Assembly (NCBI GenBank): GCA_021778515.1
Contig: JAJYCJ010000027.1
Location: 1 to 32,670 of the forward strand
DNA: 32,670 nt
Origin: Acidobacteriota bacterium
Lineage (GTDB): Bacteria; Acidobacteriota; UBA4820; DSQY01
Direction: 5' to 3'
A program made the position numbers and the translations under genes. Below the pieces are notes generated by a model. That model saw only the letters and a program-made list of their open reading frames with translations. It was not told where the DNA came from and did not search any database. Below are positions 16,163 to 32,478 of this stretch, one piece after another (position 1 is the stretch's first letter; each line of letters opens with the position of its first letter).

Positions 16163-16172
16163 GGCGAGGGGC

Positions 16173-16290
16173 GACTAAGGGATTAGGCCATTAGGCGATT
16201 AAGTTATTAAGCTATTAAGCTATAAGCGATTAAGCTATTGGGCTATTGAGCTATAAGCGATCAGGCGATTAGGGGTTTGGACCATCGGGC
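16173..16290. repeat. Degenerate octamer tandem array (consensus NATTARGC)
   Basis: About fifteen consecutive units with an 8-base period follow one another, for example GATTAGGC, CATTAGGC, TATTAAGC twice, GATTAAGC, TATTGGGC, TATTGAGC and GATCAGGC. Two units (16221-16227 and 16252-16258) are seven bases long (TATAAGC). The tract starts 10 bases after the rnr stop and ends about 70 bases before the -10 box of the AMP phosphorylase operon. Its AT richness is unlike the flanking genes. No coding potential is seen. Confidence 0.85.
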
Positions 16291-16358: not shown

Positions 16359-16364
16359 TATAAT
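16359..16364 (+). promoter_or_regulatory. Consensus -10 box upstream of the AMP phosphorylase operon
   Basis: A perfect TATAAT lies 47 bases before the preferred ATG. No good -35 sequence is found 16-18 bases upstream, so an activator or an alternative recognition mode may be needed, or the promoter is weak. Confidence 0.45.
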
Positions 16365-16410: not shown

Positions 16411-17892
16411 ATGCGCATCAAGCGGCTGAAGATCGACACTTACCGCGAGTACATCCTCTACCTGCGGAGGGACTGCGATCTCTGCCGCGCCCAAGGGTTC
16501 GGCGCCCTCTCGAAGGTGGAGGTCATGGCGAACGGACGCGGCATCGTGGGAGTCCTGGACGTGGTGGACGAACCTTTCCTGGACTCCGACCAGATCGGCC
16601 TGTGCGAGTATGCCTACCAGAAGCTCGGCCTCCCCGAGGGCACGGAAGTGAACGTGCGCCATCCGGACCCCGTCCGCTCGGTGGAGCTCATCCGCAAGAA
16701 GATCCGCGGGGAGGTGCTCAGGCGGGAGGATTACCGGTACATCGTTCAGGACATCGTCTCGAACCGCTACTCCAAGGTCGAGCTGACGGCCTTCGTGGTC
16801 TCCACGGCCCAGGGGGCGATGGAGCGGGACGAGATCGTCTACCTCGCCGATGCCATGGCCGAAACCGGAGAGAGCCTGGAGTGGGGGCGCGAGATGGTGG
16901 TGGACAAGCACTGCATCGGCGGCGTCCCGGGCAACCGGACCACCATGGTGGTGGTGCCCATCGTGGCCGCCTACGGGCTCACGATTCCGAAGACCTCCTC
17001 CCGGGCCATCACCTCGCCTTCGGGCACGGCGGACACCATGGAGGCCCTGGCGGAGGTCTCCCTGAGCCTGGAGCGCCTGAAGGCCATCGTGGAACAGGAG
17101 AGCGGCTGCCTCGCGTGGGGCGGCTCCTTCGCCCTCTCCCCGGCCGACGACATCATCATCGGAGTGGAACGTCCGCTGAACATGGACGCGCCGGGGCAGA
17201 TGATCGCCTCCATCCTCTCCAAGAAGAAGGCCGCCGGTTCGACCCACGTGCTCATCGACATCCCCGTGGGGCCCACGGCGAAGGTGGCCAGCTTCACCCA
17301 GGCCGTCCAGCTCAGAAAGCTCTTCGAATACGTGGGGGACAGGATGGGCGTCCACGTCGAGGCCCTGCTCACGGACGGTTCCCAGCCCATCGGCCGGGGG
17401 GTGGGCCCCGCCCTGGAGGCCCGGGACGTGATGCAGGTGCTGCGGTGCGATCCCGATGCCCCCCAGGACCTGCTCGACAAGAGCCTGGATCTCGCCGGGC
17501 GAATCATCGAGTTCGATCCTGCCGTGCGCGGGGGGCGGGGCAGGGCCACGGCGGAGGAGATCCTGAGAAACGGCGCAGCCCACGAGAAGATGCTCCGCCT
17601 CATCGCCGCCCAGGGGGCCAGGGAACCCGTGCGCCCGGGGCCGCTCGTGAGGGAGGGCCTGGCGGCGCGGACGGGTACCGTGGCCTCTGTCGCCAACCAC
17701 CTGGTGGCCAAGTGCGCCAAGCTCGCCGGGGCGCCCGTGGACCTGGGAGCGGGGTTGGACCTCTTGAAGAAAGCGGGGGAGGCGGTGCGGGAGGGCGAAC
17801 CGCTCTTCCGCGTCCACGCCGAGCACGAGGCCGACCTCGGCTTCGCATGGGATTACTGGCAGCGGCACCCGGAAATGATCGTCATCCAGTAG
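16411..17892 (+). CDS. AMP phosphorylase (archaeal DeoA / TIGR02645-like family)
   Basis: This 493-residue protein belongs to the thymidine/AMP phosphorylase superfamily and would split AMP with phosphate into adenine and ribose-1,5-bisphosphate. It carries the extra N-terminal domain that plain thymidine phosphorylases lack. Key motifs are DKHCIGGVPGNRTT (165-178), where thymidine phosphorylase has DKHSTGG, and SSRAITSPSGTADTMEAL (196-213). Near-identical motifs also occur in a bacterial group annotated as putative thymidine phosphorylase, so the motif alone does not fix the substrate. The next two genes supply the following two steps of the AMP pathway, which favours AMP. The ATG at 16411 has CGGAGGG only three bases upstream; an in-frame ATG at 16387 is an alternative with a weaker site. 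The next start lies 12 bases after the stop. Confidence 0.88.
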   Translation: MRIKRLKIDTYREYILYLRRDCDLCRAQGFGALSKVEVMANGRGIVGVLDVVDEPFLDSDQIGLCEYAYQKLGLPEGTEVNVRHPDPVRSVELIRKKIRGEVLRREDYRYIVQDIVSNRYSKVELTAFVVSTAQGAMERDEIVYLADAMAETGESLEWGREMVVDKHCIGGVPGNRTTMVVVPIVAAYGLTIPKTSSRAITSPSGTADTMEALAEVSLSLERLKAIVEQESGCLAWGGSFALSPADDIIIGVERPLNMDAPGQMIASILSKKKAAGSTHVLIDIPVGPTAKVASFTQAVQLRKLFEYVGDRMGVHVEALLTDGSQPIGRGVGPALEARDVMQVLRCDPDAPQDLLDKSLDLAGRIIEFDPAVRGGRGRATAEEILRNGAAHEKMLRLIAAQGAREPVRPGPLVREGLAARTGTVASVANHLVAKCAKLAGAPVDLGAGLDLLKKAGEAVREGEPLFRVHAEHEADLGFAWDYWQRHPEMIVIQ

Positions 17893-17904
17893 GGAGGAGC
17901 GCCC

Positions 17905-18771
17905 GTGGGGCTCGTGGATACCACCGCCGCGCGTATTCGGAGCCTGGAGATCCAGGGCGCCAACGCCATCGCCAAGGCGGCGGTCGAGGCCCTGGCGGCG
18001 CAGCTGGCGGCGGAGCCCGGAGCGGACCGCCGCGCCCTGGCCGAACTCCTCGCCGGAGCCCGCCCCAACGAGCCCATGCTGAGAAATCTCCTCGAGCTCT
18101 TCCTGTCCGGCGCGGAGGGGGAGGATGTCATGGGCAAGCCGGCGGAGCGGGCCGGAGCGCTGCTGGAGCAGGTCCGCCGGGACGAAGAGACCCTGGCCCG
18201 CGTCGGCGCGGACCTGGTGAGCGACGGCATGACGGTCTTCACGCACTGCCACTCCTCCTCGGCGGTCTCGGTTCTCAAGGAGGCCCGGCGCCAGGGCAAG
18301 CGCTTCACGGTGCTGAACACGGAGACCCGACCCCGCTTCCAGGGGCGCATCACGGCCGCGGAGCTGGCGCGGGAGGGCATCGAGGTGAGACACATGGTGG
18401 ACGCGGCCGCCAAGTACGCGCTGGACGGGGCCGACCTCTTCCTCTTCGGTGCCGACGCCGTGCTTCCATCGGGATACCTCATCAACAAGGTGGGCACGGG
18501 CATCTTCTGCGTGGTGGCGAGCCGGTATGACGTGCCCACCTACTGCGCCACCCTCACGCTCAAGGTGGTTCGGGACCACATCGACGAGGCGGTGGAGCAG
18601 CGGGACCCGGCGGAGGTGTGGCCCGACGCGCCGGCAGGTGTCCTGGTCCTGAACCCGGCCTTCGACAAGGTGCACCTCAAGTACGTGACGGCTTTCATTA
18701 CCGAGAGGGGGCTCGTGAAGGATATCCTGGCCCTCTGCCCGCCCGCGCCCCCCGCGCGAGGGTGTTCATAG
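17905..18771 (+). CDS. Ribose-1,5-bisphosphate isomerase (eIF-2B alpha-like)
   Basis: This 288-residue eIF-2B/MtnA-superfamily protein would convert ribose-1,5-bisphosphate to ribulose-1,5-bisphosphate. The catalytic Cys motif THCHSSSAV gives C115 and the catalytic Asp motif LFGADAV gives D184, followed by INKVGT. These match the Cys and Asp known to be catalytic in the archaeal isomerase. The C-terminal NPAFDKVHLKYVTAFITERG is typical of the group. It is shorter than the roughly 320 residues usual in archaea. Methylthioribose-1-phosphate isomerase (MtnA) is a relative, but it is longer and has a different Cys motif. The GTG start follows AGGGAGGAG placed at the end of the upstream gene. The RuBisCO gene follows after ten bases. 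Confidence 0.87.
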   Translation: MGLVDTTAARIRSLEIQGANAIAKAAVEALAAQLAAEPGADRRALAELLAGARPNEPMLRNLLELFLSGAEGEDVMGKPAERAGALLEQVRRDEETLARVGADLVSDGMTVFTHCHSSSAVSVLKEARRQGKRFTVLNTETRPRFQGRITAAELAREGIEVRHMVDAAAKYALDGADLFLFGADAVLPSGYLINKVGTGIFCVVASRYDVPTYCATLTLKVVRDHIDEAVEQRDPAEVWPDAPAGVLVLNPAFDKVHLKYVTAFITERGLVKDILALCPPAPPARGCS

Positions 18772-18781
18772 GAGGACGGCG

Positions 18782-20059
18782 ATGCCCGGGGAAGCGCTTC
18801 CCTACCTGGAACTGGGCGGTGAGCCGCTGGAGGACGATCTGGTATGTCGGTTCCGCGTGGAGCCGGAGGCGGGCACCTCCCTGGAAAAGACCGCCAATGC
18901 CCTGGCCGCCGAGTCTTCCATCGGCACCTGGACCGATGTGGCGGCCCTCACTCCCGAGCTGAGGGAGAGGCTGAGGGCGCGTGTCCTCGCCGCGGACGAT
19001 CGGGGTGTGGTGATCGCCTACGGCGCGGTCCTCTTCGAGGGCGGCAACATGGCCCAGGTCTTCTCTTCCGTGGCAGGCAACATCTTTGGGATGAAGGAGG
19101 TGAGGAGGCTGCGCCTGGAGGCCGTGCGCTTCCCGAAAACCCTGGCCGCCTCCTTTCCGGGTCCGGCCAGGGGCATCCAGGGCATCCGGGAAGTCCTGGG
19201 CGTCACCGGCCGCCCCCTCGTCGGCACCATCGTGAAGCCGAAGATCGGCCTGGATCCCAAGGCCCAAGCCCAGGTGGTCTACGAGACCATGACGGCGGGC
19301 TGCGACGTGGTCAAGGACGACGAGAACCTCACCTCCCAGAGCTTCTGTCCCTTCGAGGAGCGGCTCCAGGCCTGCCTCGATGCGGCGAAGCGCGCGGAGG
19401 ATGTGACCGGCTCCGCCAAGGGGTACATCCCCAACGTCACGGCCCCCACGGAGGTCATGCTGAGGAGGACGGGGCTCGTGGCCCACCTCGGCGGCCGCTT
19501 CGCCATGGTCGACCTGGTGACGGCCGGCTGGTCGGGGGTCCAGAGCCTCCGCGGGGCCGGCATGGGATTGATCCTTCACGGGCACAGGGCCATGCACGCG
19601 GCCTTCACGCGCTTGCCCGAACACGGGATCGCCATGGAGGTGATCGCGCGCTCGGCCCGCCTCGCGGGCATCGACCAGCTTCACGTGGGAACGGCGGTGG
19701 GCAAGATGGAGGGGAGCCGGGAGGCGGTGCTGCGCTCGGCGCGCGCCCTGAGGGCCTGGCCCTCCGAGGATGGGACGATGGCCGACGGGCAGGACTGGCG
19801 CGGCGTCCTGCCCGCCATGCCCATCGCCTCGGGCGGCCTGCACCCAGGGCACGTTCCGGATCTGATGTCCCTGTTCGGGCAGGAGGTGATCCTCCAGTTC
19901 GGCGGCGGTATCCACGGCCATCCCGGCGGGAGCGCGGCGGGGACGAAGGCCGTCCGCCAGGCCGTGGAGGCGGTTCTCGCCGGACTGAACCTCGAACGCG
20001 CCTCCTCGTCGGCCCCCGAACTCCGGACGGCCCTTGCCTTCTGGAAAGGACAAGGATGA
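18782..20059 (+). CDS. RuBisCO large subunit, form III-like
   Basis: This 425-residue enzyme would carboxylate ribulose-1,5-bisphosphate to two 3-phosphoglycerates. Active-site residues are all visible (spinach numbering in brackets): E44 (E60), T49 (T65), N100 (N123), K152 (K175) and K154 (K177) in IVKPKIGL, carbamate K178 (K201), D180 (D203) and E181 (E204) in VVKDDEN, H268 (H294), R269 (R295), H301 (H327), K308 (K334), S350 (S379). This rules out the RuBisCO-like proteins of methionine salvage, which lack several of these. The C-terminal FGGGIHGHPGG resembles archaeal form III. No small subunit or phosphoribulokinase gene is in the window. AGGAGG at 18770-18775 precedes the ATG by six bases. 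The subform (III-a, III-b, II/III) cannot be settled without a tree. The stop overlaps the next start (ATGA). Confidence 0.93.
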   Translation: MPGEALPYLELGGEPLEDDLVCRFRVEPEAGTSLEKTANALAAESSIGTWTDVAALTPELRERLRARVLAADDRGVVIAYGAVLFEGGNMAQVFSSVAGNIFGMKEVRRLRLEAVRFPKTLAASFPGPARGIQGIREVLGVTGRPLVGTIVKPKIGLDPKAQAQVVYETMTAGCDVVKDDENLTSQSFCPFEERLQACLDAAKRAEDVTGSAKGYIPNVTAPTEVMLRRTGLVAHLGGRFAMVDLVTAGWSGVQSLRGAGMGLILHGHRAMHAAFTRLPEHGIAMEVIARSARLAGIDQLHVGTAVGKMEGSREAVLRSARALRAWPSEDGTMADGQDWRGVLPAMPIASGGLHPGHVPDLMSLFGQEVILQFGGGIHGHPGGSAAGTKAVRQAVEAVLAGLNLERASSSAPELRTALAFWKGQG

Positions 20060-21855
20060 ACACGCTTCTGGTTCTCACGCGCGATCCGGACCTCCTCAAG
20101 GTCCTCCGGGCGGCCCTTCCCAGGACCTGGGATCTCCAGGAGAGGGGCACGGTGGCACAGGCCATGGAGCTCCTGGCCGACTGCAAGCCGACGGCGATCG
20201 TGGCCGACATGACGCTGGCCGGTCAGTGGGACGGGCTGTCCTTCGTGAGGACAGCCAGGGGCCACTTTCCCGATCTTCCTCCCGTGGCCATCGTGGCGGC
20301 CGCCGGAGTGGGGGAAGAGCTGGAGTCCCGCGCTCGGGACGCCGGGGTGGCCGTCATTCTGCCTCGGCCCCTGGACGAGTCCTCGTGCCGGCCGGCCCTG
20401 GCCCGCCTCATGGCGGCAGTGGGCCCGGCGCGCATGAGCCTGATCGAGGCGCTGGGTGAAGGGTTCGTGGATTTCACCCACCGGAGGGTCGCCATCCAAA
20501 CGCAGGACGGTGAACTGCACCTCCTGTTCGGTGAGGGAAGGCTCTGGACGCTGGTCCATCCCCTCTACTGGGAGCGCTACCGGTCGGGCCTCCTGGGTGC
20601 CGGCCTGGAGTGCGGCGAACGGGGGGAGGACCTCCAGCTCTACCTGGCAGAGCTGGAGGAGAGGCTGGCTCGCTCGGTCCCCATGGCTCCCATCAAACAA
20701 CAGGCGACCCTCTCCCTGCTCGCGTCCCTGCCCCTGCATGCTCCCATGGCCTGCCGGTCAGAGCCGGTGGTCATACCGGAGGGGCTCCTGCCGATGGAGA
20801 TCCCCGCCCTCCTGGTGCAGTTGGTCGACCAGATTCCGGAGGAGGCGATGGCCGTGCTCAGGAGGCCGGGCGTCAAAGTCAGCAGGGTGGAGGAGGTGCT
20901 TCCTGAGGACCTGCCCATCCAGCCCCATCACGGCTACCTGTTGCAGCAGTGCCAGCAGCAGGTGGCGGTGTCGGATCTGCTCCAGACGGGAATTCTGCCT
21001 GGGCGGCAGCTCCTGAGCGGGGTGTACCTGCTCCTCCTGCTCGGCCTCCTCGCCAGCGAGCCGGCCGTGGAGCCGCCGTTCCGGCTGTCCGGCCTGGCGG
21101 TCCGCCTCGATGAGGAGACCGCCCTGATCCAGCGGCAGTCGGAGGCCATCCAGAACCTGGTCCGGGCGTTCAAGGTCCCCGGGATCAGCCCTTACAAGGT
21201 GCTCGGTGTGCCCCCGGGCAGCGCGCCGGCCGATGCGGTGAAGGCGCACGAAGCCCTGAAGGAACGCCTCAGCCCGGCCAATCTGCATCCGGAAGTGTTC
21301 AAGAGGCACCAGAAGGAACTCTTCTTTCTGACCGCCAAGATGGGAGAGTCCCTACTTCTCCTGCAGAACCGCTACCTCGAAGACCGCAAGGCCGAGGCAA
21401 GGGCCGAGAGTCCCGAGGCGGAGGGAGGCCCGAATCCGGTGGCCCAGGCCGACACGGCGCTCAGGCGGAACTCGGAGAACCGCCAGCAGGAGGCCCAGCT
21501 CAGCCTGCGACGGGCCCTCGACTGCATGGCCCAGGAGCAGTGGCACGATGCCTCCCAGCACCTGAGGCTGGCGCTTTTCCACAACGGTTTTTCGCCTCAG
21601 GCCCACTACCTGATGGCAAAAATCTACGAGAAGAACACCAACAGCCGGGCCAAGCACATGGCCGAGCGTGAATTCCAGCGGGCCATAGAGCTGGACCCCC
21701 GGGATATCGAGTTCCTTCTGGATCTGGCAGAATTTTACCTGAACAACGGGCTGTTCGCCCGGTGCCGGGCGTACCTGGACAAGGCCCAGGCCATCAGCCT
21801 GAGGGATCAGAGGGCCATCGCCATGCGCAAGAGGATCAAGGAGATAGACCGCTGA
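20056..21855 (+). CDS. Receiver / DUF4388-like / J-like / TPR protein coupled to RuBisCO
   Basis: This 599-residue multidomain protein has no assigned function. Residues 1-120 form a receiver-like domain with a possible phospho-acceptor D51 (VADMTL). It lacks the usual acidic pair, has Ala at the Thr/Ser position (VAIVAAAG) and Arg for the conserved Lys (LPRPL), so it is probably a pseudo-receiver. Residues about 125-370 resemble a DUF4388/PATAN-type module with a winged-helix-like end (LLSGVYLLLLLGLLA). About 377-435 is J-domain-like (PYKVLGVPPGSAPADAV) but has no HPD motif, so classical DnaK stimulation is unlikely. About 475-599 are TPR helices (DPRDIEFLLDLAEFYLNNG). The start overlaps the RuBisCO stop as ATGA, so translation is coupled. 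A role in RuBisCO assembly or regulation is speculation; such proteins also occur without RuBisCO. Confidence 0.8.
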   Translation: MNTLLVLTRDPDLLKVLRAALPRTWDLQERGTVAQAMELLADCKPTAIVADMTLAGQWDGLSFVRTARGHFPDLPPVAIVAAAGVGEELESRARDAGVAVILPRPLDESSCRPALARLMAAVGPARMSLIEALGEGFVDFTHRRVAIQTQDGELHLLFGEGRLWTLVHPLYWERYRSGLLGAGLECGERGEDLQLYLAELEERLARSVPMAPIKQQATLSLLASLPLHAPMACRSEPVVIPEGLLPMEIPALLVQLVDQIPEEAMAVLRRPGVKVSRVEEVLPEDLPIQPHHGYLLQQCQQQVAVSDLLQTGILPGRQLLSGVYLLLLLGLLASEPAVEPPFRLSGLAVRLDEETALIQRQSEAIQNLVRAFKVPGISPYKVLGVPPGSAPADAVKAHEALKERLSPANLHPEVFKRHQKELFFLTAKMGESLLLLQNRYLEDRKAEARAESPEAEGGPNPVAQADTALRRNSENRQQEAQLSLRRALDCMAQEQWHDASQHLRLALFHNGFSPQAHYLMAKIYEKNTNSRAKHMAEREFQRAIELDPRDIEFLLDLAEFYLNNGLFARCRAYLDKAQAISLRDQRAIAMRKRIKEIDR

Positions 21856-28637: not shown

Positions 28638-29396
28638 ATGAAGCGGTCCGAACTGGAACGTTACCTGGCGAGCTACCTCAAGGTGGAGCTCTACGATGAC
28701 GCCTCCTTGAACGGGCTCCAGGTGGAGGGGCGGGAGGAGGTGCGCCGCTCGGCCTTCGCGGTCTCCGCCTGCTCGGAGGCCTTCGAGCGGGCGGCCCGGG
28801 GCGGTGCCGACGCCCTCGTGGTCCACCACGGCCTCCTCTGGAAAGGCGACGGCGTCAGGCCCGTCGTGGGGCTCCTCCGCCGGCGGCTGGGGCTCCTCTT
28901 CAACGCCGAACTCAACCTCCTCGCCTACCACCTGCCCCTGGACGCCCACCCGGAGGTGGGCAACAACGCCGTGGCGGCGCGGGAGCTGGGGCTTCGGGAG
29001 ATCGCCCCCTTCTGCGACTACAAGGGCTCGGCCATCGGCGTCCGAGGGTCCCTGCCGAATCCCGAGCCATGGGACGCCTTCCTGGCCCGTCTGGAGGGCT
29101 ATTACGGGCACAGGGCCCTGGCCATCCCCCCGCCGCGGGGCGAGGTCGAGACCGTGGGCATCGTTTCGGGCGCCGCCGCCCGGGAGGCGGAGCAGGCGGT
29201 GGCGGAGGGGCTAGACGCCTACGTCACGGGCGAGCCCTCCGAGCCGGTCACCTATCTCTGCCGGGAGGAGGGCCTCGGCTTCGCGGCTCTCGGCCACTAC
29301 GCCACCGAGAGGGTGGGCATCCGCGCGCTCGCCGCGCACCTGGAAAGAGAGTTGGGCCTCGAGGCGTTCTTCATTGAGGTGGAGAACGAGGCGTAG
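28638..29396 (+). CDS. Nif3-like dinuclear-metal hexameric protein
   Basis: This 252-residue protein belongs to the Nif3/YbgI family (DUF34), often annotated as GTP cyclohydrolase 1 type 2; its true function is not settled. Metal-binding motifs are LVVHHGLLW, AYHLPLDAHPEVGNN and the C-terminal GHYATERVG. The N-terminus (ELERYLASYL...NGLQVEG) is typical. It lacks the PII-like insert found in longer members. It follows kdsB by 27 bases and precedes ade by 73 bases, so the three may be co-transcribed. Confidence 0.9.
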   Translation: MKRSELERYLASYLKVELYDDASLNGLQVEGREEVRRSAFAVSACSEAFERAARGGADALVVHHGLLWKGDGVRPVVGLLRRRLGLLFNAELNLLAYHLPLDAHPEVGNNAVAARELGLREIAPFCDYKGSAIGVRGSLPNPEPWDAFLARLEGYYGHRALAIPPPRGEVETVGIVSGAAAREAEQAVAEGLDAYVTGEPSEPVTYLCREEGLGFAALGHYATERVGIRALAAHLERELGLEAFFIEVENEA

Positions 29397-29469
29397 GCCT
29401 CCAGTCGGCAGGGCGGCGGCACCTCCAAGAGAAACCCCGCTCCATGAACACCGAGGCTGGGAGGAGCAG

Positions 29470-31197
29470 ATGACAGCGGAAACGGGGATCGGGTCCCTCT
29501 CGAAACGGATTCGCGTGGCCCGGGGCGAGGAGCCGGCCGACCTTCTCTTCGTGAACGGCCGGGTGGTCTCCACCTTCACCGGAGAGATCCTGGAGACCAC
29601 CGTGTCGGTGGCCGAGGGCAGGGTGTGCGCCCTCGGGGGCGGGGAGCGCTCCGCGCGGGAGGTGGTGGACCTGGGCGGGGCCTACCTGGCTCCGGCCTTC
29701 ACCGACCCGCATATCCACGTGGAATCCTCCATGCTCACGCCGGAGGGCTTCGCCGAGGCAGTGGTGCCGCACGGGACCGGGGCCACCGTGAGCGACCCGC
29801 ACGAGATCGTGAACGTTCTGGGGCTCGACGGCTACGCCTACATGAGGAGGGCTGCCGAGGGCCTTCCCGTGGACCTCTTCTTCACCCTTCCCTCCTGCGT
29901 GCCGGCGACCCACATGGAGACGGCCGGCGCGTCGCTGGAGGCGGCCGACCTGGACGGCGCCATGGGGGCCTACCCGGACGTGGTGGCCCTCTCGGAGATG
30001 ATGAATTTCCCCGGAGTGATCTACGGGGTCCCCGAAGTTCTCCGCAAGGTCCTCGCGGCCCAGCGCCGCGGCCTCATCGTGGACGGCCACTCCCCCGGCC
30101 TGCAGGGGCGCGACCTGGATGCCTACCTGAACGCGGCGATCCTGACGGACCACGAGTGCGGGAGCGCCGAGGAGGCCCTCGCCAAGCTCAGGAGGGGCAT
30201 GTGGGTGCTCATGCGCGAGGGCTCCGCGGCGAAGAACCTGGCCTCCCTGACCCCCGCAGTCACAGCCGGAAACCTCCACCGGGTCTGCATCGCCTCCGAC
30301 GATCGCCATCCCGACGACCTGGTGCGCGAGGGGCACCTGGACCACGCCCTCCGGGTGGCCGTGAAGGCCGGGCTGGACCCGCTCTGGGCCCTGCGCGCCG
30401 TCACGCTCAACCCCGCGACCCTCTACGGCTTCAGGGACCGCGGCGGCATCGGACCCGGTTACCGCGCTGATCTGGCAATCCTGCGGGACCTTCGGGATTT
30501 CGAGGTCCTCTCGGTCTACCACGACGGGCTCAAGGTGGCCGAGCGCGGCCGCCTGCTGGCCCCCATCGCCCGGAAGGAGGCCGCCGGGACCCTCTCTTCG
30601 GTCCACCTTCCGCCCGGCCTCGAAGAACGGCTGGGCCGCTTCCCCGCCTCGGGCCGCGTGAGGGTCATCGGCGTGGAACCGGCGCAGATCACCACGAGGA
30701 GCGAGACGGGCGACGCGGAGGAGGCCGGAGCCGGTAAGCTTCTCCAGTTCGCCGCCGTGATCGAGCGCCACCGCGGCACCGGCAACGTGGGGCTCGGCTT
30801 CGTCTCCGGCTTCGGCCTGAAGGCGGGCGCCTTCGCGAGCACCGTCAGCCACGACAGCCACAACTGCGTGACGGTAGGGGTTTCGCCCCGCGAGATGGCG
30901 CACGCCGCGAGCGTCGTGGCCGCCATGGGCGGCGGCTTCGCGGTGGTGTGCGAGGGGCGCGTGCTGGCCACCCTCTCCCTGCCCGTGGCGGGCCTCATGT
31001 CCAGCGCCGGGGCCGTCGAGGTGGCCCGCTCCCTCCAGCAGATCCACGAGGCGGCGCGCGAATGCGGCTGCCCGCTCCCCGCCCCCTTCATGACCCTGGC
31101 CTTCATCGCCCTTCCGGTGATCCCGAGTCTCAAGCTCACGGACAAGGGACTCGTGGACGTGGAGCGCTTCAGCCTCGTCCCCCTCGAAGCCCCGTGA
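29470..31197 (+). CDS. ade: Adenine deaminase
   Basis: This 575-residue amidohydrolase converts adenine to hypoxanthine and ammonia. Metal-site motifs include FTDPHIHVESSMLTP, VSDPHEIVNVLG, VDGHSPGLQG, LTDHECGS and IASDDRHPDDL. The C-terminal Ade-specific domain ends in KLTDKGLVDVERF. The length fits the Ade family and not the Add-like deaminases. The ATG at 29470 follows GAGGAGCAG; the frame extends into the end of the Nif3-like gene but without a plausible N-terminus. Adenine is the base that AMP phosphorylase would release, so this enzyme could drain that product toward guanine/hypoxanthine salvage. The two loci are 12 kb apart, so this is inference. Confidence 0.95.
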   Translation: MTAETGIGSLSKRIRVARGEEPADLLFVNGRVVSTFTGEILETTVSVAEGRVCALGGGERSAREVVDLGGAYLAPAFTDPHIHVESSMLTPEGFAEAVVPHGTGATVSDPHEIVNVLGLDGYAYMRRAAEGLPVDLFFTLPSCVPATHMETAGASLEAADLDGAMGAYPDVVALSEMMNFPGVIYGVPEVLRKVLAAQRRGLIVDGHSPGLQGRDLDAYLNAAILTDHECGSAEEALAKLRRGMWVLMREGSAAKNLASLTPAVTAGNLHRVCIASDDRHPDDLVREGHLDHALRVAVKAGLDPLWALRAVTLNPATLYGFRDRGGIGPGYRADLAILRDLRDFEVLSVYHDGLKVAERGRLLAPIARKEAAGTLSSVHLPPGLEERLGRFPASGRVRVIGVEPAQITTRSETGDAEEAGAGKLLQFAAVIERHRGTGNVGLGFVSGFGLKAGAFASTVSHDSHNCVTVGVSPREMAHAASVVAAMGGGFAVVCEGRVLATLSLPVAGLMSSAGAVEVARSLQQIHEAARECGCPLPAPFMTLAFIALPVIPSLKLTDKGLVDVERFSLVPLEAP

Positions 31198-31254: not shown

Positions 31255-32478
31255 TTGAAAAAGCCCACCCTCCTGATCGTCTTCCTCGTGGTCTTCATCG
31301 ACCTGATGGGGTTCGGCATCGTGATCCCGCTGCTGCCGCTCTACGGCCAGAGGTACCATCCCAGCCCGGCCATGTTCGGCCTTCTCATGGCCGTCTACTC
31401 GCTCATGCAATTTCTCTTCGCCCCGGTTCTGGGCAGGCTCTCGGACCGTTTCGGCCGGCGGCCCATCCTGCTCCTCTCCCTCGTCGGGTCGGTCCTGGGC
31501 TACCTCCTCTTCGGGCTCCAGAACTCGCTCGCGCTCCTCTTCCTCTCGCGCATCGTGGCGGGCGCCATGGGGGCCAACGTCTCCACGGCGCAGGCGGTCA
31601 TCGCCGATGTCACGCCGCCGGAGAAGCGGGCCCGCGGCATGGGGCTGGTGGGGGCGGCCTTCGGCCTCGGTTTCATCCTGGGGCCGGCCATCGGAGGACT
31701 GGCGGTCCACTTCGGAGAGCGATGGCCTGGATTCTTCGCGGCGGGGCTCTCCTTCACGGCGCTGATCGTGGCGACCTTCTGGCTGCCCGAAACGTGGACC
31801 GTGGCCAGCAGGGCCGGCCGCGCCTCCCTGCCCAAGCGCGGCTGGTTTTCCACCAAGGCCCTGCGCGATGCCCTGAGCCACCCGCAGATCGGGCTGGTGC
31901 TCCTGATCTTCTTCCTCTCCACCTTCGCGTTCGCTAACTTCGAGTCCACCTTCGCGCTCTTCTTGAACCATCGGCTGGACCTGAGCATCACGCACGTCAC
32001 CTACCTTTTCGTCTTCATCGGCTTGCTGGCGGCCGTGGTGCAGGGCGGCCTGATCGGAAGGCTGACCAAGGCATTCGGCGAGCGGCGCCTGGTGGTGGCG
32101 GGCACGCTGATCCTGATCCCCTCCTACCTCCTCATGCTCGTGGCGCACTCGGTGCCCCTGCTCATGGTCTTCCTCATCCCTCTTGCCCTGGGCGCCGGGC
32201 TCGTGCAGCCCACCCTCTCCTCGCTGGTCTCCAGGCTCTCCTCGGCCAACGAGCAGGGAGGCGTTCTGGGCCTCTACCAGTCCATGTCCTCGCTGGCCCG
32301 AATCACGGGGCCGTTCTGGGGCGTCTACGCCTTCGAGAGCATCGGCATCCCGGCGCCCTATCTCACGGCCGCGGCGGTGGTGGCGGTCTCGTGGGTGCTG
32401 GCGCTCCTCATGCTGCGTCGCGCGCAGGTGGCCAAGAGGCAGGAGGCCGCGCAGGCCGCCGTGGCCGCTGAGGGATGA
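31255..32478 (+). CDS. MFS transporter, DHA1 (TetA-like) family
   Basis: This 407-residue inner-membrane protein has about twelve hydrophobic helices. The A-motif between helices 2 and 3 reads GRLSDRFGRRP, and the helix 5 region has the antiporter-type GPAIGG (LGFILGPAIGGL). This is the pattern of drug:H+ antiporters related to TetA, so it may export a small molecule; the substrate cannot be told. The start is TTG at 31255 with AGGAGA eight bases upstream, which gives a short cytoplasmic N-terminus (MKKPT) before helix 1. It follows ade by 57 bases, but whether it exports purines is pure speculation. Confidence 0.9.
   Translation: MKKPTLLIVFLVVFIDLMGFGIVIPLLPLYGQRYHPSPAMFGLLMAVYSLMQFLFAPVLGRLSDRFGRRPILLLSLVGSVLGYLLFGLQNSLALLFLSRIVAGAMGANVSTAQAVIADVTPPEKRARGMGLVGAAFGLGFILGPAIGGLAVHFGERWPGFFAAGLSFTALIVATFWLPETWTVASRAGRASLPKRGWFSTKALRDALSHPQIGLVLLIFFLSTFAFANFESTFALFLNHRLDLSITHVTYLFVFIGLLAAVVQGGLIGRLTKAFGERRLVVAGTLILIPSYLLMLVAHSVPLLMVFLIPLALGAGLVQPTLSSLVSRLSSANEQGGVLGLYQSMSSLARITGPFWGVYAFESIGIPAPYLTAAAVVAVSWVLALLMLRRAQVAKRQEAAQAAVAAEG

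Follow-up and report, generated by a model that had tools for sequence, protein, structure and literature searches.

Among the closest described systems is the nucleoside 5′-monophosphate (NMP) shunt of Thermococcus kodakarensis, which comprises an NMP phosphorylase (TK0352), a ribose-1,5-bisphosphate (R15P) isomerase and a form III ribulose-1,5-bisphosphate (RuBP) carboxylase/oxygenase (RuBisCO; TK2290), and which in Thermococcus replaces a missing pentose phosphate pathway (PMC9700705). The same nucleotide-salvage pathway is reported in candidate-phyla bacteria with form III and II/III RuBisCOs (PMC12628685; PMC9875498), and the genes for RuBisCO, R15P isomerase and AMP phosphorylase (AMPpase) also occur close together in DPANN and Bathyarchaeota, at loci such as L053, L075 and L027. 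The pathway is thus already known in archaea and some bacteria. Here we describe a 32,670-nucleotide stretch of an Acidobacteriota genome (the window; contig JAJYCJ010000027.1), in which three genes of the same three families, arranged in the same reaction sequence at positions 16411–20059, form what we take, with a probability of roughly 0.8, to be an operon for a carboxylating NMP shunt (pentose bisphosphate pathway). The new elements are the host group, the reaction-order operon, the bacterial phosphorylase and the lack of an AMP-activation site in the isomerase; no paper stating such a pathway for Acidobacteria or Aminicenantes emerged from our literature search, which was itself incomplete, so priority is unsettled.

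Organization of the operon

The three open reading frames (ORFs) are intact, without internal stops, and lie on the forward strand. They encode an NMP (AMP) phosphorylase-family protein (16411–17892, 493 amino acids, ATG start), a predicted R15P isomerase (17905–18771, 288 amino acids, GTG start) and a form III RuBisCO large subunit (18782–20059, 425 amino acids, ATG start), each preceded by a GGAGG-type ribosome site. Pfam and NCBIfam assign the products to the pyrimidine-phosphorylase family (AMPpase branch), the IF-2B family and the RuBisCO family, respectively. The intergenic gaps are 12 and 10 nt, and the coordinates and close spacing of the original prediction, made from the DNA letters alone, are exact, and its view that gene order follows reaction order in a single bacterial operon is supported. 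This arrangement differs from T. kodakarensis, and also from the DPANN and Bathyarchaeota clusters, which have either an isomerase–RuBisCO–phosphorylase order with wider spacing or divergently oriented genes.

The host is a metagenome-assembled genome (MAG) of 3.34 Mb, 97.15% complete with 0.65% contamination. Because the flanks hold genes for EF-G, TrmD, RNase HII, PrmC, RNase R and KdsB, as identified by profile searches, the locus is bacterial, and the earlier placement of the system outside the small-genome candidate phyla holds: unlike those bacteria, the host encodes cytochrome oxidase and has a genome of 3.3 Mb.

The proposed pathway would proceed in three steps. First, the phosphorylase would use phosphate to convert a nucleoside 5′-monophosphate into free base and R15P; an NMP substrate is suggested by its family, its operon partners and its full-length AMPpase architecture. 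Secondly, the isomerase would convert R15P into RuBP, a predicted activity for which the conserved catalytic residues and 5-phosphate ligands, the modelled fold and the profile all speak. Thirdly, the RuBisCO would combine RuBP with CO2 to give two 3-phosphoglycerates, which would enter glycolysis. The role of the operon would be the salvage of nucleotide ribose with CO2 fixation; we infer this physiological role, the co-transcription of the genes, and R15P and RuBP as the intermediates.

RuBisCO

The RuBisCO scores 501.8 with TIGR03326 (type III), over the cut-off of 497.45. The full active site claimed for it earlier is confirmed: every carboxylase active-site motif is present (E44/T49/W50, N100, T149, K152, K154, K178/D180/E181, H268/R269, H301, K308, S350–G352 and G374/G375), as assigned by equivalence to spinach numbering. 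In a 91-row tree, built by a quick method with archaeal rows chosen by similarity to the query and candidate phyla radiation (CPR) sequences not included, the RuBisCOs of the host's taxonomic order form a single clade (SH-aLRT 99) beside archaeal form III, and a long branch with support of 100 splits the order and the archaea from form I. There is no CPR record among the best 80 matches. These data support a form III enzyme with an intact active site and predicted carboxylase activity.

Isomerase

The best-scoring family for the isomerase is TIGR00511 (R15P isomerase, 189.9), compared with 101 for TIGR00512 (MtnA), well short of the cut-off of 279 for an MtnA equivalog. The Cys/Asp motifs by which it was first recognized are present (C115 and D184, corresponding to C135 and D204 of the Pyrococcus horikoshii enzyme), but they do not identify an R15P isomerase by themselves because MtnA has the same pair; it is S117 and K220 that discriminate. 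Ligand positions were mapped from the P. horikoshii R15P isomerase (PMC5789824), giving R53, S117, Q146, N194, K195 and K220 in the window protein. The 5-phosphate side-chain ligands S137 and K240 are kept as S117 and K220, and are alanine and threonine in the MtnA of the same genome; three of the four 1-phosphate side-chain ligands (R22, R65, Q166, K215) are kept, with R22 replaced by Q17, as in most archaeal R15P isomerase homologues sampled. An AlphaFold model (pLDDT 88.9) has R15P isomerases as its best PDB matches (E 1.3e-25), at all of Foldseek ranks 1–13 and ahead of MtnA. The catalytic pair, the 5-phosphate ligands and the fold support its assignment as a predicted R15P isomerase.

These observations bear on whether the isomerase and RuBisCO could instead serve methionine salvage, as MtnA and a RuBisCO-like enolase (MtnW). 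The isomerase has the PF01008 fold in common with MtnA, as it does the catalytic Cys/Asp pair, and the RuBisCO fold recurs in MtnW; however, the genome encodes a separate MtnA elsewhere (TIGR00512 400 bits, cut-off 279), which carries an insertion after the Cys motif that the operon isomerase lacks. With the 5-phosphate ligands found only in the operon isomerase, and a RuBisCO that scores as form III and has the full set of carboxylase motifs, methionine salvage is disfavoured and we regard it as very improbable.

AMP strongly activates the R15P isomerases of Thermococcales (PMC5789824), and unlike that of T. kodakarensis the window isomerase is short and lacks the AMP-activation site, with none of the eight residues of the Pyrococcus site present. 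Wherever sequences from the order extend over these positions the same residues are missing, with one further letter change in L145, and by inspection most of the positions lie in gap-free alignment stretches next to conserved motifs. Bathyarchaeota retain some of these residues and the short DPANN isomerases few, some of the latter likewise missing much of the site; because the site is lost or partial in many archaeal homologues it does not define all R15P isomerases. In the isomerase tree the order joins the short DPANN forms, on a long stem. The loss of the whole site suggests that AMP probably does not activate the window isomerase, in which case phosphorylase supply or transcription would control the flux. 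The operon is therefore well suited to asking whether the pathway can do without AMP gating.

Phosphorylase

The phosphorylase scores 669 bits with NF003338 (cut-off 434) and 588 with TIGR02645 (cut-off 435). It spans positions 3–490 of 500 in TIGR03327 and 4–494 of 502 in NF003338, and so includes the AMPpase N-terminal domain; thymidine phosphorylase models, which lack this domain, start only at residues 89–92. This full-length architecture is shared with T. kodakarensis, as are the R15P isomerase ligands and the form III RuBisCO. In contrast to T. kodakarensis, the window protein belongs to a bacterial branch (99/100), where it is sister (99/97) to plasmid proteins of Novosphingobium, Sphingobium, Azospirillum and Niveispirillum, and a tree constrained to group it with the archaeal enzymes is worse by 20 log units and modestly rejected (AU p 0.04); one outgroup row, which had an internal stop and branched very long, was excluded from this tree. 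Two residues matching S217 and K221 of human thymidine phosphorylase, which we take to be functional there, occur in the window protein as well as in the Thermococcus enzyme and therefore do not discriminate. Since the protein branches with bacterial proteins usually linked to phosphoribosyl pyrophosphate (PRPP) synthetase, an NMP substrate is something we infer; and with this placement and a Thermococcus enzyme that accepts AMP, CMP and UMP (PMC9700705), 'NMP' is safer than 'AMP'. The original designation as an AMP phosphorylase-type enzyme agrees with the full-length family match; action on AMP is a prediction.

The plasmid relatives share 53–55% identity with the window protein, are its nearest outside the order, and are usually located beside a ribose-phosphate diphosphokinase gene, two Azospirillaceae records excepted. 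They are part of a recurrent bacterial cassette of a 'thymidine phosphorylase family' protein and a ribose-phosphate diphosphokinase, in many cases joined by an MBL-fold hydrolase or an ATP-cone protein; the cassette is seen on plasmids near metal-efflux, stress or ATP synthase genes (L178, L181–L187) and in other Acidobacteriota (L157–L160, in genomes G172, G332, G148 and G114). Unlike the window operon, the cassette has no R15P isomerase or RuBisCO annotated in the neighbourhoods read. Bradyrhizobium bll3115–3117 are listed as changed in expression under microoxia (PMC6515984). The cassette may run NMP to R15P and PRPP, and the bacterial phosphorylase ties the operon to this widespread plasmid element.

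The company of a diphosphokinase raises the alternative that R15P and RuBP derive from PRPP breakdown or a ribose-1-phosphate kinase, with the phosphorylase acting mainly in reverse or on nucleosides and feeding nucleotides. It would suit this alternative that R15P is a metabolic node in Thermococcus, where the NMP phosphorylase is also able to synthesize NMPs (PMC9700705). The window operon, however, contains no PRPP synthetase, and its gene order, with an isomerase and RuBisCO, would pull R15P forward. Carboxylation of RuBP is also practically irreversible. We consider a different source of R15P unlikely, and favour the forward NMP shunt.

Distribution and conservation

Among 396 Acidobacteriota genomes, RuBisCOs with at least 57% identity to that of the window are confined to its order, where they are present in 12 of 13 genomes; the single genome lacking a match is 67% complete. 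The next RuBisCOs of the phylum (∼42% identity) group with form I and adjoin kinase-like and transketolase-like genes. The phosphorylase–isomerase–RuBisCO order on one strand is shared by all nine other genomes of the order whose contig spans the cluster, with intergenic gaps of −4 to 76 nt. Two of these relatives, L150 and L151, have a third-position GC of ∼0.3, a 4-nt ATGA overlap of the phosphorylase and isomerase genes, and no window flank gene found nearby. The cluster is thus kept in both GC-rich and AT-rich genomes and in differing neighbourhoods, which is good evidence of selection for it, and its conservation across a taxonomic order argues against chance. Pairwise dN/dS values of 0.05–0.24 for the operon genes indicate purifying selection.

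No RuBisCO relative was found among viral contigs, and RuBisCO matches on plasmids are all below 60% identity, the named ones being form I. When plasmids were searched with the isomerase, no match reached 80% coverage of the query, and those with names are MtnA or eIF-2B-like. We also note that L009 (DYJZ01000056.1), titled Thermoanaerobaculum aquaticum, falls in the window's order and has a third-position GC of ∼0.3 like L150; the species name is probably wrong.

Metabolic setting

Genome-level gene searches were made by protein family. Phosphoribulokinase was found in none of the 13 order genomes with PF00485, a profile that matches in 11 of 14 controls. Transketolase is present in 12 of 13; in the second family of the order it seems to be split into two halves. 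Transaldolase is present in the window's genome with a patchy distribution across the order. Cytochrome oxidase subunit I is encoded in the window's family, with none in the second family.

A RuBisCO working in a Calvin-Benson-Bassham cycle with phosphoribulokinase, and with the phosphorylase and isomerase as bystanders, finds some precedent in bacteria that pair form III RuBisCO with this kinase, as proposed for WOR-3 and Thermodesulfobium (PMC12542636; PMC12999727), and transketolase is at hand. The consistent absence of the kinase family from the order nevertheless disfavours this cycle, as does the conservation of the phosphorylase and isomerase genes with the RuBisCO; and it is the other Acidobacteriota, with form I-like RuBisCOs, that do show kinase-like and transketolase-like neighbours. 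We give this alternative hardly any credence. No known enzyme here makes RuBP from ribulose-5-phosphate, which argues against an autotrophic cycle, and since RuBP has no known source except the isomerase, salvage is indicated rather than autotrophy. Because the genome also encodes transketolase, transaldolase and cytochrome oxidase, the NMP shunt would be a parallel salvage route; unlike in T. kodakarensis, it would run beside a putative pentose phosphate pathway, as judged by transketolase and transaldolase. This raises the question of why the bacterium keeps a second ribose route.

Several observations weigh against assignment of the operon to the NMP shunt. First, the isomerase score with TIGR00511 is under the equivalog cut-off of 314.1, and we therefore name the protein on its residues and fold, not on a profile that is not discriminating alone, the MtnA of the same genome scoring 199.9 with it. 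Secondly, the phosphorylase scores 499.6 with TIGR03327 (AMP_phos), under the cut-off of 535, placing it in the wider AMPpase-like family and not in the AMP_phos equivalog, and it is nearest to the bacterial 'thymidine phosphorylase family' branch, so that its substrate is a matter of deduction. Thirdly, with its own transketolase and transaldolase, the genome does not obviously need this route for ribose catabolism. Fourthly, the sister G002 (L002:6446–7981, also L142) has in-frame deletions in two genes: the phosphorylase lacks residues ∼280–477 (∼198 residues), and the isomerase lacks residues ∼105–178 (∼74 residues), including the catalytic Cys. The RuBisCO in G002 is intact (96% identity), there is a short GACCT match at the second deletion junction, and the deletions reflect either decay or misassembly.

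The G002 deletions would fit a relic or decaying cluster, and archaeal contamination of the MAG might be envisaged as well. Yet the window has intact frames, dN/dS well below 1 and only 0.65% contamination, and its bacterial housekeeping flanks are syntenic in other MAGs of the family. Contamination or an archaeal contig is rejected on the flanks and synteny, and we think the whole explanation extremely improbable.

The proposal of nucleotide-ribose salvage with CO2 fixation in the original prediction is partly supported: the isomerase and RuBisCO pass residue, profile, tree or fold tests in an order lacking phosphoribulokinase, and the phosphorylase substrate is deduced. The prediction overlooked the order-wide distribution, the lost AMP site and the presence of transketolase, transaldolase and cytochrome oxidase in the same genome. 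It is possible, although we would put it somewhat short of even odds, that a bacterial lineage put this NMP shunt together as an ungated mosaic. The phosphorylase would then come from the bacterial branch that is often carried on plasmids, the isomerase would be of archaeal type and free of AMP control, and the RuBisCO would be a separate, deep member of form III; the shunt would operate alongside transketolase and transaldolase in a host equipped to respire oxygen. With this locus, the RuBisCO route from nucleotides to phosphoglycerate would reach an order of Acidobacteriota with genomes of ordinary size, and its three genes are a compact set for which expression at moderate temperature may be feasible.

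Neighbouring features

A TATAAT sequence at 16359–16364 on the forward strand, ∼46 nt 5′ of the first start codon, is a candidate −10 element of the operon promoter, and TATAAT/TATACT-like hexamers occur in a similar place shortly 5′ of the first gene in most relatives; a consensus scan found no full sigma-70 promoter ahead of the operon. Between the RNase R stop and the candidate promoter is an AT-rich 8-base tandem repeat, ATTAAGCT, in about 10 copies (16170–16269). A related, shorter array is present in the sister species and was not seen in other relatives.

Downstream, a forward-strand ORF (20056–21855), whose ATG overlaps the RuBisCO stop (ATGA), has a receiver-like N-terminal part, recognized by eye, and C-terminal TPR repeats, and is possibly co-transcribed with the RuBisCO. 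It is fast-evolving (28–46% outside the genus) yet stays beside the RuBisCO throughout the window's family; L149 has the same adjacency and L150 does not. Outside the operon, a forward-strand adenine deaminase gene (29374–31197; TIGR01178 545.7, cut-off 472.5) is matched in each of the 13 order genomes, over the cut-off in 11, and the enzyme could consume any adenine released. The major facilitator superfamily (MFS) transporter at 31255–32478 has as its best families the Tet(A)/(B)/(C)-type tetracycline efflux proteins, far under their cut-offs (243.5 vs 475), and on this evidence is an ordinary MFS exporter.

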